Of a stretch of 64,000 nucleotides of DNA, positions 1,868 to 64,000 are shown piece by piece; position 1 is the first letter of the stretch, and every line of letters starts with the position of its first letter. The notes below the pieces were generated by a model. It saw nothing but the letters and a program-made list of their open reading frames with translations. It was not told the origin of the DNA and ran no database searches. The DNA is from Platanthera guangdongensis. Its lineage: Eukaryota; Streptophyta; Magnoliopsida; Asparagales; Orchidaceae. The stretch lies in contig CM077147.1 in NCBI GenBank assembly GCA_039583875.1, forward strand, positions 109,538,124-109,602,123, read 5' to 3'. Both the position numbers and the translations under genes were made by a program.

Positions 1868-1962
1868 ATACTGAAATTTTATTGTAATTTTAATTTTCAT
1901 TTGTAGTACCTTACAACCTTGGTAGAACAACAAACATGACATAACCAAACCAAAGACCTCGG
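1868..1962 (+). other. Decayed gag-protease intron-like spacer (Tek-H')
   Basis: AT-rich 95-bp segment at the same position as the GT...AG spacer of Tek-H (62623-62723). Here both borders have changed: the donor position reads AT instead of GT and the acceptor position reads GG instead of AG. Confidence 0.5.
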
Positions 1963-7264: not shown

Positions 7265-7349
7265 GTTAGTTTCTAACCTAGTTTGATTCTGTTTTAGCTT
7301 GTAGCTGTAGTTTGGATGTAGTTCGATCAATTATGTAACCATTTTATAG
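7265..7349 (+). other. Intron-like GT...AG spacer between gag and protease (Tek-A, 85 bp)
   Basis: Donor TCAG|GTTAG, acceptor TTATAG|GG, and a CTAAC branch-point-like word at about 7273. Retention puts a TAG stop at 7267-7269. Removal joins the gag Gly codon to protease in frame (phase 1) and leads straight to VLFDSSAT. It lies at the same place as the spacers in Tek-C, Tek-G and Tek-H. Confidence 0.6.
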
Positions 7350-18097: not shown

Positions 18098-18181
18098 CTA
18101 TGACAAACATGTCACACACACAAACCACAAACATAGGAGTACTAAGTAAAACATACAAACAATAGCAAACTAAACTCATAC
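18098..18181 (-). other. Intron-like GT...AG spacer between gag and protease (Tek-C, 84 bp)
   Basis: On the minus strand: donor TCACAG|GTATGAG, acceptor TGTCATAG|GC. The length is a multiple of three and there is no stop, so it can be translated as 28 extra, mostly hydrophobic residues. Removal joins the gag VTG to FVMIRD and the protease motif, as in the other families. Confidence 0.62.
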
Positions 18182-19238
18182 CTGTGACCACGTCACTCTG
18201 CTTGATGGCCTCTTGCAGGCCAAGATTGTAGACCCGGGGTTGCGCCTGCAAGGCAGAAGAATCCACCACCGCCTTTCCTTTTTCCGCATAAGATGCTCCC
18301 GCCTTCTTTTCACTCTTTGGCGGCATCCGACAGTCTCGCGCATTATGTCCCATCCGGCCACAATTGAAACAGGTACGAGTGTCTGGCTTGGAGGTTGCCC
18401 CTGATGTTGCTCCCATTGCAACTGATGAAGGAGCTTGTCCACTAGGCTTGGACTTCTTACCCCATCTCTTCTTATAAAATGATTTTCCCGATCGGGGCGC
18501 CTTCCACTCCGGTTGCGACACAGCCAAAGCTCTCTTCCCTTGCACCCTTTTCATGTCCTTTTCCAACGCGGTTGCGGTGTCAACCAACGCTTGGAAACCT
18601 TGGTTCACAGAACTGGACACAAGGAATCTCAGCTCGTCCCTCAGTCCTTCATAGAACCGATTCGTCTTCCTCTGCTCATCAGCAAAAATTGAACCCGCAT
18701 ACCGCCCCAAGCGAGTAAATTCATGCAGGTACGCGTCAACACTGCCATCACCTTGAGTCAACCGTTGGAATTCATTTTCCATGGCTATCCGTTAGGCCAC
18801 AGGAAGGTGCTTCGCTAGGAAGAGCCGGGAGAATTCTTCCATCGATACTTGGGTTAACGGACGACCCGCCAAATGATGCAACTCCATCTCATCCCACCAT
18901 AAACGAGCTTCTCCTTCAAGCAAGAAGGTGGCTAAGGTAACTTTCTGATGCTCTGCCGTTCCTATCGCCGTCATCACTCGCTTGACGCGCGATAACCAAT
19001 CCTCAGCCTGCGTCGGGGTTCCCGCTCCCGAGAACGTAGGTGGATGGAAGCTCATAAACTGCGTTAGCTGCTTCTCAGCCGCTCGAGGAGCCACATCCAC
19101 AACAGGTTCAGGCCTTGACGCCACCTGTTCTGGCCTCACAGCCGCTTGTTCCTGCCTAAGTGGCTGACCGTGGATCATGGTAAATAAGGCCTCCGCAACT
19201 AAACGCACATGTTCCTCAGACGGTGGAGGTGTAGGCAC
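18182..19238 (-). pseudogene. Tek-C gag
   Basis: Capsid and nucleocapsid protein. The frame runs from about 19238 or slightly upstream (no clean ATG; a stop lies in frame near 19290). It has the retrotransposon gag motifs FHPPTFSG, AEDWLSRV, LLEGEARLWW and [12 protein letters not shown], then a complete zinc knuckle [14 protein letters not shown] at about 18360-18320. One in-frame TAA at 18789-18791 sits where relatives have Gln (CAA). It shares a frame with pol, so Gag-Pol would be one polyprotein. Confidence 0.85.
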
Positions 19239-37202: not shown

Positions 37203-37278
37203 GTATGGATTAACTTCATAGAGAGTCAAATTATTTTATACTTGGTATGTGCGTGTTACCTTACCACTGCTTGTTTAG
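37203..37278 (+). other. Intron-like GT...AG spacer between gag and protease (Tek-G, 76 bp)
   Basis: Donor TGTCAG|GTATGG, acceptor TTGTTTAG|GA. Removal joins the gag VSG codon to [16 protein letters not shown] in frame, phase 1, exactly as in Tek-A, Tek-C and Tek-H. Confidence 0.65.
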
Positions 37279-56591: not shown

Positions 56592-56721
56592 TGTAACATC
56601 ACATGTTACTCTTGGACCCCTCAACTTAGATTTGGTTAGGCATGGGTGAGATTTAAGGAATACCAACTATGTTTGGCCATAGGTAGTGGGTGGTGGCCAT
56701 GTGGGGCCCACTATAAGACCA

Positions 56722-57043
56722 TAGTCAAACTAGGTCAAACTAGCCTAAGTGGGGACCCTAGCCACACCATGACCCCACCACATTGCCCTAACCCTAAAGA
56801 CAATCTAAGTGGACCCTAGGGTATGTCACTGGGTCAACATTTTGACCCCAATTGACCAAAGTCAACCTTGGGCTTAATTTGGTCAAACCCACACTCATAG
56901 GCCTAATTAACCTAAGTGGAGCACCCCCTTGACCCAAACCAAGTTGGGTGGTGCCACTAGACCCATTTCCACCAAGTAGGGTCAGTCCACCCACCATGGT
57001 TGACCAAGTTAACTCCCCAAGTCAACAAGTCAACAAATTGACC
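56722..57043 (+). promoter_or_regulatory. Cluster of 12 W-box hexamers (TTGACY) in Tek-H LTR
   Basis: TTGACC or TTGACT on either strand at about 56723, 56733, 56832, 56841, 56851, 56860, 56881, 56929, 57000, 57020, 57027 and 57038. W-boxes are the binding sites of WRKY transcription factors, which act in defence and stress. They lie near the LTR start, in the expected U3 region. Confidence 0.7.
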
Positions 57044-59808
57044 TAAAGGAGTGAAATGAAGGCCAAGCCATTTCCCCTTGGACCAAGCCCACCAAAATTG
57101 GCCCATAGTCGGCCCAAGTGAACAAGAGCAGTCCTACCCCTCTAAATCAGGAGAGAGAATACATGCAAGGGGGTAAAATTGGGATTTTTAGGAGAAGAGG
57201 AGAGAGAAAGGGAAATGAAGGAAATGGTGGCCACATGGCCACCCCATCAGTTAGTTTTGGCTGCCCAAAACGAGGTGGCCTACCTCCCCTCTCCATTTCC
57301 AGCAGAAAACCAGGGCTGTGAGCCACTTGGCAGCTGGGCGGAGCAAACAAAGCTCAAACCGAGCTCTCATAGGAAATACCTCCCCATATACTCCACCTCA
57401 GTCCAAATAGACCTCACCAACAGCTTCAGGAGACAGAAAGGAGTGGAATTCGACTGCTTAATCATGGAGAATGGTGGAGAATTGAGTTTTCGGGGTGGAG
57501 CTCGCCGGCGCACCACCACCACGGCAAACCGCCGCCTGACCCGCAACCAAGCCTCAATTCAGGTTCGTTTCGCCTCGCCTCTTCCTGTACTAGGGTTCTA
57601 GATCGATCTAGGGAGATATCGGGCTCAATCGAGCCCGATGCCATGAGAGGAAATGGAGAAAACTGAGCCTTTTTCTTCTTGCTCGGGTTCGCCGGAGGAG
57701 CCAACTCCGGCGGCCCCACCGCCGGGAAACGCTCGCCCCCACCTTAACGAAGGTGGTGGCGATATCCGCCGGCGGTGGTGGTGGCTCAGCTGGCCGGAAA
57801 ATGCCAGCCAACATCGTCCAGTAAGAAGCAATCGTGGCCGTCAAACCATCGGGGACTATGAACCGATTCCGTCGGTTTAGCTTTAAGATTCGTGCAATAG
57901 ATTAAATGTTTTAATTTAATATTTGATGAATAGTGAAATATCTATCACACTTTTTCAGCCACCTTGCATGTTAACGTTAGGCCTCTTAGAGGCATTTCCA
58001 GAACTTAGTCTCTTAATGAAAACTGTAGCCAAGGGTCTTATCTTTAAGGTGCCACCCTAAACATGTAATTTGGTGTAGTGTACAGTCCTGTAGGACATTT
58101 CTCCTAGGACTGGTCCTAGAGTAGGGCAGAAATTAAATTGGATGCCCAGGTCAAACTATTAATCACCATGGCCCCAATTTTTGGGCACATGCATGATTAG
58201 GGCATACTTAACTCCTGCCAAAATGTAGGAATTTTTAGAGAACATTTTCCTATAGTTTTTGCCAAAATATCAAAGTACAAATAAATGAAATATAAGGAGT
58301 TCTACACCTCCCCATGGTCCCAAATTTTGGTGGTAGGTCAGTGGGGACATCCTTGGTGCATGATAAAATTTTCAGCACCTTGGGTTCACTGCATGTTGGA
58401 GAATCCACTTGCATGTGTTAGCTTATGTTATGCCTTGGTGTGCAATTAGCAAAAATGCAAATATGGTGTATTTAGCCCAATGGTGACATTCAAAGGTCTT
58501 GGAATTATTTTCAGTGGTTCATTAGGGTAAACTTCACCCCTCAAATTAATCATGGAATTTGTGGACTCAAAATTCCATTTATTGGAATTTATTTTAAATG
58601 TAGCTATTTTGGGAAATAAAATTGGAAAATAGGTTTTCCTCAAGTACAAATCCTATAATTTTGCCAAGGCATAGATAATGTCACCTTTGACTTAGGAAAA
58701 ATATGATTCCCATGTTTTGAAGAACTCTTGGAGTAGATATCTTAAATTGCCCATTTTACCCTTATTTTATTAATTCTTGAAATAGTGGATATATACCTCT
58801 GAAAAATTTGGAATTTATTCTACTGCTCTAAAATGGTATTATTAGTTTTGTATGAATTTCGCAGAATGAATGGATGCATTGTTGTATGTTAAAGTAATAC
58901 AATGGCATTTTGGTAAATATGTTATAATGGAATTCTTATAGGCCATTTCACAATAAATGTTGATGATACTTTGCCAATAGTCATAAATTAGTGTCTAAAA
59001 GTTCTGTAATTTTCCTGGAATTTTTGAGTACATAATGCCTATACTTCATTTGGAAAATGGAATTTGTGTGGAATTGATATTAAATAGGAAATGAGAATAA
59101 ATAATTAGAGGAAAATTATGAAACTCTGTAGGCAGCAATATGTTATCAATATACATCTCAGGAAAAATTTCCTAGGTCAGTGGATACCTAATCATACTAC
59201 TTCATGTGTAAAATGACCTAGGGTTTAAATTAAAAAGATTTAATTAAAGGACTAATTGACCGAGAAAAATTATGAGAATTTATAGGGTAGTTCCCCTAGT
59301 CTATACCACCCTAGGATAAATATTTAGAGGCAAGATGCCTTAAGGATTGGAAGATCACATTTTAGGGTAACCATAGGACATGGTCTGCACATAACACAAA
59401 TAGGTCTTGCCTTAGGGGTTACCAGGGGATTGATTATCGGCAGAAGTAAGAGAGTTCAACATGAGTAACCCTGGTGGGTAGAGTTGTCTTAGTGAGGGAT
59501 CAAAAGTGCAAGTCTTAGTTAGCAACTGGAGTGGGAGTCGGCGGAAGACCGTCGGCTTCCCGGTAACGCCTTAAGTCACTAGCGTTGTACTAAAGCAATA
59601 AGGAGAGCTGGGGAGATACTTGGGTAGCCATCAACTAAAATAAATATCCTTGCGAAAGGTAATGCTGGGCGTAATCCCAACACAGTTCCTAGTGCCCCTT
59701 GAGAGCCCTTCACAGGGAATACCGGGGGCAGTCCTGGGATTAACCTTAAATCGCTAAGTATAATAAACCATAGAGAAGAGTAGTTTAATAGGTTAGGACA
59801 TTGTTGTA

Positions 59809-59965
59809 CCTTCTCGCCCGTGTGGGGTTGGAGAGATTCATGATATATGCTCACCAATTTAGGGTTGGAGGGAGTTGGTATAAAGGCACTGATGTGCGAT
59901 CTCACCCGTTTGGGGTTTGAGGGAGTTGGCATAAAGGCACTAATGTGCGTTCTCACCCGGGGTTG
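59809..59965 (+). repeat. Tandem repeat of about 60 bp in Tek-H LTR
   Basis: Two clear units plus a degenerate one, each containing GGGTT(T/G)GAGGGAGTTGG, TATAAAGGCACTGATGTGCG and CTCACCCG. Confidence 0.75.
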
Positions 59966-61333
59966 GTTTTGAGGGATTCAGGACGGGTTTTGGTCCTGCG
60001 AGCGGGAGGCTCGGTATGAATTACTTGCATGTGCATAAATATCGTGGCGGGGCATGCGGTACTGGCCGTTCGTCACACCGATAGCAGTACGGTGCACCAG
60101 GCGGTTGTGAGAGTTAGAGGGGCCAGTGGGTTGTTTTACACTGCGGTCTGGAGGACGATCCCCGATAACGCACATCCGACCTAACAAGACTGACGGGTTT
60201 GTCAGCAAAGTACGTACGCGAGACTCTAGAGTGCACCTTGGACATGTACAGAGGCGTATGAGAGGGGTCTAAGGCTTGGTAGTGTGCATACCGGTCTAGA
60301 AGCGGAGATGCCCGCTCCGCTGCTGCCGTAGCCACAGCGGTGGTACCCGAGAGTGATGCTAGCTCTCTAAAAGTGGGAACTAAAGGTCTGTGATCACAGA
60401 GTCGTTGTGTGTGAGTTGCACTTGCCTGCGCATAAAATTGCATCATATCATTCATTCATATTAGGTCATACGCTTCATAGATCCTTATCATATAAATTAG
60501 TATGGGCTCTTTTATATGATAAGTTAAATTTCCTGGAAATCCTAACTTATATATTTGTATGAGCATTTATATAAGTTAGAGTACGTTTGTGATGATAGCA
60601 TAGTGGTAGCTTAGCTTATTTACTTGTTCATACTACTGTTTCTTTACTTCCTTTACTGCACTGCTCTTACTTATTACTTGTACCGTACTTAGAATTGCTA
60701 GAGTAGGATTACATTACTTATTACAACTCTAGTTAGATATTGTCACCTGCTTCCACCTTTCTACCCTTTTATTGTCCTCCGCTTCGTCCTCCCGCTCGGT
60801 GCCTAGGAGCTGCGGGGCGAGGCGCGGAGGAAACGACTTAGTCTTTTTGACTAATGGTCGGTGACCAACTATTTTTAGGAGCCCGTGGAGATGGAGCACC
60901 AGCACGTCGAGGAGGCAGGACATGAGGAGCAGATACCGCTTCAGCAAGCTACTACCACTACTGTGCGCCCTCAGGTGGGACGAGATCTGATGTTCTAGAT
61001 TAGCTTCCGCATTTACTATTTTGAGAGAGAGTGATTTGATGTACTGGGCATAAGCCCTTCTTACTCTTTCATTTGTACTCTATTGTGGACTATTGTGATG
61101 TACTTTTCATTTCATTTACATGATTGTACTATGCGGCTTGTGGACTGATGGTTATATATATAGTTTTACTTCTTTCTTCTCATATTGGCCTATAGGTTAA
61201 ATGATCGTACTAGCCTGCAGAATCGGCGTGTTGCGGTGTCGACTAACCCGTGAGTTAGTGCCACCGTAAGACGGCGATTCTGGGCATAAGATCCGGTAGC
61301 CCTCCTTGGTAAGGGGGAGGGGGGTCTTACAAA

Positions 61334-61345
61334 CTGGTATCACTT
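61334..61345 (+). other. Primer-binding site of Tek-H
   Basis: CTGGTATCACTT, two bases after the LTR; matches the Met-tRNA site in TGGTATCA. Confidence 0.7.
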
Positions 61346-61358
61346 GAACAACGATCAT

Positions 61359-62628
61359 ATGAGAAAGAAGTCCACAACATGGGACCACCCCCGCCCGAGC
61401 ATTAGTTTGCGGACAAACTATGCAGCGGAAGCAGTGGTGTGCCCATGTGTAAAGTCACATAAATGGTTCACAAAGTACAATATGTTAGGCCAATTTTTCT
61501 TTAACCTTACCTTTATGCAACCTCCACAGGTCGCAGCGCCGCAAAATGTGGCTCCTCCCCCTCCAGCTGCCACTCCATTCCTACAGACGGAGTTGGGGCA
61601 GACCTTGACGGCGATTCTGGATGCCTTCAGAGCCCAGCAAGTCCCGACTCCACAGCCAAATCCGGGGTCGAGCTGCCTGAGTGCATTCAAGAGCCTGTCC
61701 CCACCGACATACCGTGGGACAGAGGATGCGGTGAAGACGGAAGAATGGCTGGAGGCCATACACGAGATCTTAGCGGGCATCAGCTGCCCAGTCGGCCAGG
61801 CAGTACCTCTAGCCACCTCTATGCTAGAGGCCCATGCGAAGAGATGGTGGAAATCAGTCCGGGAGTCTACTTATGCGGACTTTGAGCTGTCAGAGATATC
61901 ATGGGAGGAGTTTGGCGATGTGTTTCTGGAGCACTTCGTCTCTACTACGGGCAGAGATGCTTTGGAGGAGAGGTTTTTGAACCTCAAGCAGGGGACTAGA
62001 TCGGTGATAGAGTACCAGAGAGAGTTCTCCCACTTGGCCAGGTTCGCGGGGATTCAGGACATCGACGATAGGAGGTATGCGAAGAGGTTCTACCGGGGCC
62101 TCAGGGACGATTTGAGGCAGGCCTTGCTATTCATTTCTCATGGCACATCTAGGCAGATCATCGAGATGGCGAAGAAGCTGGAGGCTGACCAGCTGATGGT
62201 GCGAGCCGGAGGGAAGAGACCATTTGATGGGTCGACATCAGGTGAGAGCAGTAGGGGCTCTCAGAGAGGCAGGACCATCGGATACAGGAAGGGTAGGGGA
62301 CGTCGTCGTCCCAACTTCAGGCAGGAGCAGGGGCCTCCTCCAGCATTGGCTCCCCCACCTCTACAGATGCATGATCCGAGGAGACAGGATGACCGAGGCC
62401 ACCGACAAGTGGTTTGTTACGGATGCCGCCAGCCCGGGCACATCAGGTCGGAGTGCCCGCACCAATTCCATCCCCCTCCTCCTCCTCCACCTCCAGTGGC
62501 CCCAGTACAGCAGGGCCGAGGTCGAGGCCGAGGTCGGGGATATCACGGCAGGAGACGGGAGCAGGAGCAGATATACGCCTTGGTCCTCACAGAGCCGAGG
62601 AATCCCGAGAAGGTTATCACAGGTACTT
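61359..62628 (+). CDS. Tek-H gag (capsid and nucleocapsid), intact frame
   Basis: Open from the ATG at 61359 to TGA at 62626-62628. A second ATG at 61515 (MQPPQVAAPQ) may be the true start, because the first 50 codons have no gag signal. Capsid motifs: LSPPTYRGTEDAVKTEEWLE, MLEAHAKRWWKS, VIEYQREFSHLARFAG and FYRGLRDDLRQALL. A Gly/Arg/Ser-rich linker follows, then the complete zinc knuckle CYGCRQPGHIRSEC, a proline run and a GRGRGRG tail. The last three codons (GT, stop) lie in the intron-like spacer, so unspliced RNA encodes Gag alone. Confidence 0.88.
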
Positions 62629-62723
62629 GAAGTTAATTATGAATTTTCTTGGATTTTCAATGATATATATATAGTATCTGGAACTATAGGATAACAATTA
62701 ACTTTCACATAAACAAACCTCAG
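62623..62723 (+). other. Intron-like GT...AG spacer between gag and protease (Tek-H, 101 bp)
   Basis: Donor TCACAG|GTACTT, acceptor ACCTCAG|GC, AT-rich interior with a TTAACTTTCAC branch-point-like word near 62700. Retention ends Gag at TGA. Removal joins ITG to IVMISDKP and the protease in frame (phase 1). Confidence 0.68.
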
Positions 62724-64000
62724 GCATAGTTATGATCAGCGACAAGCCCGCTCATACTCTTTTTGACACGGGTGCTTCACACTCGTTCGTATCCGAGGAC
62801 TTCATCGACGGACTCGAAGGCGTGGAGAGGTTCCCTGGACTAGATATGAGGGTACGTCTACCCGATGGGTCGGAGCTGCGGACCACTGCACATTGTGATA
62901 TGAAGGCCGAGATTGGCGGCAAGGCATTTGAGGCGCCGGCAACTATTCTGAAGCTGCAGGACTTTGACTTGATCTTGGGCATGGCCTGGTTGCATCGGAA
63001 CCATGCCGAGATAGATTGTCCGTCCAGGAGGATCACGCTAAGACATGGAGACTCTCATGTTATCGTTGAAGGTATCCAGCCTATTTGCCACCTACTGTTA
63101 TCTTCTGTACAGGTTGTGAAGGCCCATGAGCAGGGTGAAGAAGTTTATCTTGTCTGCTTCGAGATGGTGGGAACAGGGGCGACTATCTCAGATATTCCAG
63201 TGGTCCGGGATTTCTCCGACGTATTCCCGGAGAAATTGCCCGGGCTACCAGCTGCTAGAGACTTGGATTTCAGGATTCAGCTAGTACCGGGAGCGAGGCC
63301 GGTGTCCCGGGCACCCTACAGGATGGCTCCCAGGGAGTTAGCAGAGTTCAGGACTCAACTACAGGAGCTAGTCGAGTCAGGATTTGTGCGACCTAGTTCA
63401 TCGCCATGGGGAGCGCCAGTTCTCTTTGTGAAGAAGAAGGACGGATCACTGCGATTATGTATAGATTACCGGGAGCTGAACCGGTTGACGGTCCGCAACA
63501 CCTATCCTCTGCCTCGGATAGATGAGTTATTTGACCAGCTACAGGGAGCCTTCTGGTTCTCCAAGTTAGATTTGCGATCCGGCTACTATCAGCTTCGTAT
63601 CAGGGAAGAGGACATACCGAAGACGGCATTCAGTTCGCGCTATGGATTATACGAGTTCACGGTGATGCCTTTTGGGCTCACGAATGCTCCTGCTGCATTC
63701 ATGAGTCTAATGAACCGTGTTTTCGAGCCTTTCTTAGACCGCTTCGTGATTGTATTCATCGATGACATCCTTATATATTCTCGGACTCAGGAGGAGCATA
63801 CGGAGCACTTGGCACAGGTCTTGCAGAGGCTGAGGGAGACCCAGATGTACGCAAAATTTTCAAAGTGACAGTTCTGGTTACAGGAGGTGGCTTTCCTGGG
63901 GCACACGATCAGTGGGGCTGGGTTAGCAGTGGACCCGGCCAAGATAGAGACAGTGAGGGATTGGCCACGACCGAAGACCGCATCTGACATCCGTAGTTTC
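62724..64000 (+). pseudogene. Tek-H pol: protease and RT (partial, one stop in view)
   Basis: Protease [17 protein letters not shown] with LILGMAWL; then [16 protein letters not shown] with [67 protein letters not shown] and intact catalytic FIDDILIYS (about 63755). A TGA at 63866-63868 interrupts FSK.QFWL, where relatives have Cys (TGC or TGT to TGA). The frame then continues with EVAFLGHTISGAGLAVDP to the window edge. No start codon is needed if it is made by splicing; ATG 62732 is the first Met. Confidence 0.88.

Follow-up and report, generated by a model that had tools for sequence, protein, structure and literature searches.

A short intron-like segment between gag and protease in Tekay-like retrotransposons of the orchid Platanthera guangdongensis

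The window, by which we mean the whole stretch of 64,000 nucleotides that was analysed (Platanthera guangdongensis, contig CM077147.1), holds near its end the gypsy element Tek-H on the plus strand. The 5′ LTR of Tek-H occupies 56592-61331, its start being approximate and placed by blastn against the stretches around L033, a copy discussed below that lacks the segment under study. Just after the LTR end, at 61335-61343 (plus strand), stands the primer-binding-like sequence TGGTATCAC, which we take to resemble an initiator-tRNA primer-binding site. The gag open frame (61290-62630, plus strand) matches Pfam Retrotrans_gag (E 8.7e-19) and a CCHC zinc knuckle, and it ends one codon beyond a split glycine, at a stop inside a segment of 101 bp (62623-62723, plus strand) with the borders ACAG/GTAC...CTCAG/GC. 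The protease and the start of the reverse transcriptase (RT) follow in one open frame (62702-63868, plus strand; RVP_2, E 3.9e-21; RVT_1, E 8.6e-32), the first residues of which are encoded by the 3′ end of the segment. Pfam places gag upstream of the segment and protease-RT downstream of it, and in Tek-C and Tek-G, as in Tek-H, a single open frame covers protease and RT, with the segment upstream of the protease. The complete order gag-protease-RT-RNaseH-integrase was found by Pfam in the window pieces taken together with relatives from P. zijinensis. Signals for a Chromo domain are weak: the match of Tek-A (E 0.0015, 18.9 bits) lies under the cut-off of 25.1, the proteins P0194 and P0196 reach 13 bits, and P0200 and P0206 have no match. 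Scans of viral contigs for relatives found none.

Segments at the corresponding place occur in Tek-A (7265-7349, plus strand, 85 bp), Tek-C (18098-18181, minus strand, 84 bp) and Tek-G (37203-37278, plus strand, 76 bp), all bordered by GT and AG, and in the decayed Tek-H′ (1868-1962, plus strand, 95 bp), both borders of which are mutated. Re-reading the window gave the same coordinates, borders and phase for Tek-A, C, G and H, and the same mutated spacer in Tek-H′, as an earlier note on this DNA. In each of the four former elements the segment splits a Gly codon in phase 1, the distance from this Gly to the LFD motif is 11 residues, and excision leaves a single reading frame. The AT content of these segments is 66-74%, against 37-61% in their flanks. 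Upon retention, the first stop after Gly falls at codon 1 in Tek-A, codon 2 in Tek-H and codon 3 in Tek-G, so the early stop that had been described for Tek-A and Tek-H is present but is not limited to those two; the 84-bp segment of the Tek-C window copy can be read straight through (28 open codons). The Tek-A window copy is decayed, since its protease frame contains a stop. The interiors, earlier called unrelated, are so for the most part, except that the interior of Tek-H′ aligns with that of Tek-H (z 5.0 against shuffles; the gag-protease stretches of the two are about 68% identical) and that some of the cluster pairs described below also align. The wording "every Gypsy family here" is accurate for the five named regions, and a motif scan of the 64-kb window turned up no other protease motif of the kind.

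The genome searched comprises 4,245,561,818 bases in 274 contigs. LTR elements constitute 73.24% of it according to the genome paper (PMC9023349), and the word Tekay is absent from that paper's main text. A degenerate pattern for the 10-residue protease motif has 31,826 exact sites genome-wide and none in a reversed control. The sample consisted of the first 80 of these sites in contig order, all within the first 20 Mb of contig C1, with 270 bases upstream of each; it was chosen blind to the segment and represents a single protease motif in a single chromosomal region. The donor was placed by the gag reading frame only, the bases beyond it being ignored, and this succeeded in 75 of the 80 copies. 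The dinucleotide after the frame-placed exon end is GT in 73 of the 75, which exceeds chance, and AT in the other two; AG stands at the fixed acceptor place in 69 (74 of all 80), and CAG closes exon 1 in 65. The segments measure between 71 and 100 bases, a length that is not a multiple of three in 66 of the 75 copies. Retention introduces an in-frame stop in 74 copies and leaves one open, and where there is a stop it lies at most five codons past Gly in 51 and at most three in 37. The five copies excluded from the border counts were read by eye: L117, L123, L154 and L173 have a GT donor and a segment, and in L101 the AG end was found and the donor was not. Copies resembling Tek-G, for example L153, have a 76-bp segment. 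The 75 copies are related and do not stand for 75 independent events; they form 11 clusters at 80% exon identity, and the interiors of cluster pairs, compared with shuffles, give z below 2 in 45 of 55 pairs, at least 2 in 10 and at least 3 in 4. The pattern that the earlier note had proposed to look for among many plants, conserved GT/AG borders and phase 1 around a freely varying interior, is the one seen across the 11 exon clusters of this genome. None of the 80 sampled sites is free of the segment, the protease frame never being continuous with a gag end of the VVTG type.

If the segment is an intron and spliced RNA is sometimes reverse-transcribed, precise intron-free copies are expected. 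A search with the 30-base Tek-H exon junction, allowing up to three mismatches, returned 15 sites in the genome and none in the control; the Tek-H exon-intron border has 1,538 sites, likewise with none in the control. When aligned, all 15 junction loci lack exactly the segment, and in 14 the junction lies between gag and pol, the exception L044 being without gag. The reading frame is continuous across the junction in the intron-free loci, and each of the 15 has between 3 and 32 stops in the joined frame over the inspected stretch, which includes some leader. L033 is flanked by LTR stretches that are 98.5% identical over 4,417 bp. The segment, with its GT and AG, is kept in the best 30 loci of the Tek-H protein search, window copy included. 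Counting 14 clean copies against the 1,538 intron-bearing sites, the intron-free rate in Tek-H is about 0.9%.

Each of the 51 sites that match the Tek-C pattern was read: 36 are without the segment, 14 have it and one is a chimera. In the 14 segment-bearing sites the end of the intron is similar to that of the exon, and in L056, L067 and L068 intron and exon 1 end in the same 15 bases, GTGACGTGGTCACAG. Such a direct repeat flanking the intron may point to an origin by duplication, or to conversion, these three copies having come from a pattern that favours likeness between exon end and intron end. The corresponding Tek-C region of the window is 18098-18200. At six of the 36 intron-free sites (L063, L069, L070, L089, L090 and L092) exon 1 ends in CACAT for CACAG, which turns the junction Gly into Cys; some intron-bearing copies have the change too.

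The losses in Tek-H have more than one origin. A tree was built of 44 copies, with L001 (identical with the window copy) and L044 (no gag) excluded; its 30 intron-bearing rows are the closest matches, which is a sampling bias. Intron status changes at least six times on this tree, and well-supported branches force five of the changes. Five young intron-free copies sit among intron-bearing ones, and grouping them together is rejected (AU test, p 2.9e-39, a value that takes no account of the five having been chosen after the first tree). Outside the young clade there are nine older intron-free copies, with 71-94% identity to the intron-bearing copy nearest to each; they may represent either losses or an old intron-free line. 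Tek-H′, at 64-68% identity, has the segment, and the intron is therefore probably older than these nine copies.

Annotated proteins of related plants bear on the same site. In the sister species P. zijinensis, DVVTG or NVVTG is joined to F...LFDTG in all five rows of this species among the 120 matches listed of 7,979; P0007 and P0010 do not cover the site. The annotation of P. zijinensis P0237 joins VIAG to IVFISGKPARTLFDTG, while P0238 of the same species is annotated as gag only and ends in VITGTCKIY, five residues beyond Gly. P0009 of P. guangdongensis is also annotated as joined. Joined proteins of this kind may be gene-model output or products of intron-free copies, and in other orchids, too, spliced gene models may underlie the annotated proteins. 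The site is read through without interruption in five of six jgi-labelled plant relatives, the sixth, P0075, not matching the motif; in the jgi-labelled P0163 and P0228 the site is not covered or not matched. Two distant gag proteins with the label lgn, P0241 and P0242 (about 40% identity), end 7-10 residues past VVIG; these ends are possibly those of gag stopped in an unspliced intron of other plants, or contig ends.

We consider it highly probable that this segment represents a short GT-AG intron of the spliceosomal type, whose retention would give Gag and whose splicing would give Gag-Pol, with occasional loss through reverse transcription of spliced RNA. Its identification as an intron, as the earlier note had it, is well supported by the recurrent and precise segment-free copies, by borders, phase and position kept over 11 clusters, and by the joined and gag-only annotations of P. 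zijinensis. Counterpoints are the AT donors in two of the 75 copies, the six of 75 acceptors that are not AG, and the Tek-C window copy, which stays open on retention. The place of the segment is fixed in the Tekay-like elements sampled: it splits, in phase 1, a Gly codon from which the protease motif is 11 residues away. In the proposed mechanism, unspliced RNA would be translatable as Gag alone, the segment containing a stop, and splicing would make the Gag-Pol message because removal of the segment joins the frames, fusing Gag to protease-RT-RNaseH-integrase. Reverse transcription would mostly use unspliced RNA, given that almost every copy retains the intron; an occasional spliced RNA would be reverse-transcribed as well and leave a precisely intron-free copy, and a leakage of about 0.9% of spliced RNA fits the Tek-H counts. 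The splicing switch claimed earlier is partly supported, in that it can be derived from the frames, with a stop on retention in 74 of 75 copies; we infer from sequence that RNA splicing is the cause, would be partial or regulated, and would serve the ratio of Gag to Gag-Pol. Intron-free copies arose repeatedly without displacing the others, and the intron may for this reason be of use to the element, the absence of intron-free copies from the 80 sampled sites being a weak limit. A life cycle built on intron retention in a chromovirus lineage with tens of thousands of protease sites in one genome, in which unspliced RNA would be both Gag message and packaged genome, spliced RNA would be the Gag-Pol message and leakage would be about 1%, is a model towards which we lean only slightly; in this model, at least five intron-free origins in Tek-H without a takeover suggest that the intron is needed for success.

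A genuine intron need not be a switch. It could be removed constitutively from all translated messages, with unspliced RNA as the packaged genome and the Gag excess produced by another device. A stop on retention, seen in 74 of 75 copies, can be expected of any AT-rich sequence of 70-100 bases that is free of constraint, and packaging of unspliced RNA would suffice for the intron to be kept in nearly all copies. We nevertheless regard constitutive removal as unlikely: the crowding of stops within five codons of Gly (51 of 74), and often within three (37 of 74), fits a clean end to Gag, an argument weakened by the stops that related copies have in common, and the gag-only P0238 is annotated with an end five residues beyond Gly. 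A different question is that of origin rather than function, namely whether an intron arose repeatedly at one and the same proto-splice site. The low z values in 45 of 55 cluster pairs are in favour of repeated gain, as are the uninterrupted sites of other plant relatives, the five of six jgi-labelled rows included, and the 15-base direct repeat around the segment in some Tek-C copies, which is expected from tandem or target duplication. However, the long-match Tek-C copies were selected by a pattern that favours the match, and site and phase are common to every sampled copy with a placed donor; one old gain is simpler, and repeated gain appears doubtful.

Other readings would dispense with splicing altogether. 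Were the intron-free copies deletions of DNA between short direct repeats, the segment would possibly be no intron at all. The motif CAGG is indeed common to both Tek-H borders, and deletion would be easier in Tek-C, where some copies have an intron end that is in part similar to the exon end (in 10 of them, selected by a pattern that favours this likeness, exon 1 and the intron agree at 12-15 of their final 15 positions). Yet a mock deletion in Tek-H pol, between 8-base direct repeats 99 bases apart, has no site in the genome (a single control, its repeat longer than CAGG and its intact targets uncounted). Among 45 loci aligned with the window, the only other shared deletion of at least 12 bases is one of 32 bases, found in L037 and its neighbour L038; length also varies by 12 bases at 62513, a position at which the window copy is short. 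Deletion also does not explain border dinucleotides kept across 11 clusters, and we hold it to be very improbable. A spacer bridged in translation, by frameshift, hopping or reinitiation, would agree with the Tek-C window copy that is readable straight through and with the occurrence of plant LTR elements that have one or more frames, consecutive or overlapping (PMC6317226). Such bridging gives no precise genomic losses, and it is at odds with lengths of 71 to 100 that are no multiple of three in 66 of 75 copies and with the conserved GT and AG, so that hardly any weight falls to it. A fixed recoding signal was rejected, as segment lengths and frames vary.

The short GT-AG intron, our preferred reading, can be set beside known systems. 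Ogre is a non-chromovirus Ty3/gypsy element of the Tat group, and an intron between protease and RT, which characterizes Ogre, was not found in Tek-H, Tek-C or Tek-G. Bianca is a Ty1/copia element. According to PMC6317226, the intron of Ogre, likewise a plant LTR retrotransposon, is partially spliced and its removal connects two portions of gag-pol, as would be the case here, but it separates gag-protease from RT-RNaseH-integrase and has a mean length of 274 bp, whereas the segments described here separate gag from protease and measure 71-101 bp; Bianca, in the same source, has two frames and a spacer, as here, of 172 bp on average, no intron being shown where it is described. Plant LTR elements are generally without introns, Ogre and EVADE being among the exceptions, according to a 2025 review (PMC12786077), which also describes how splicing separates the Gag from the Gag-Pol output in the Ty1/copia elements EVADE (EVD) and BARE1. 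There the spliced RNA gives Gag and the full-length RNA Gag-Pol, a polarity that would be reversed in the elements studied here. The chromoviruses of other plants have the same domain order, and many relatives the same Gly-...-LFD junction region; those of beet differ in that gag and pol form one continuous, uninterrupted frame, as reported in PMC3605345. For orchid gypsy elements, PMC9289625 describes an Ogre-like one with a single frame. In the literature searched, which includes few subscription papers, no description of a gag/protease intron in Tekay-like elements was found; this agrees with what the earlier note said of Tekay/Del-like chromoviruses and does not prove priority.

To our knowledge, the mechanism by which plant gypsy elements make Gag in excess over Pol is not well understood. 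An intron at the Gag/Pol border of an abundant chromovirus-like group would be a second solution beside that of Ogre and a mirror image of the short-Gag splicing of copia elements. The frequency with which spliced RNA is reverse-transcribed, about 0.9% in Tek-H, would then be naturally recorded in the intron-free copies, and annotation pipelines may score elements of this type as broken or two-frame.

Some Tek-H border sites are spaced about 9.58 kb apart (G000 C2:110116532-110135729 and C1:95502076-95511684), which suggests tandem arrays of elements with common LTRs. Upstream of the intron-free L033 (L097, 1-1294), the end of one LTR adjoins a 5′ LTR apparently shortened by about 270 bp, as LTR recombination would leave it.
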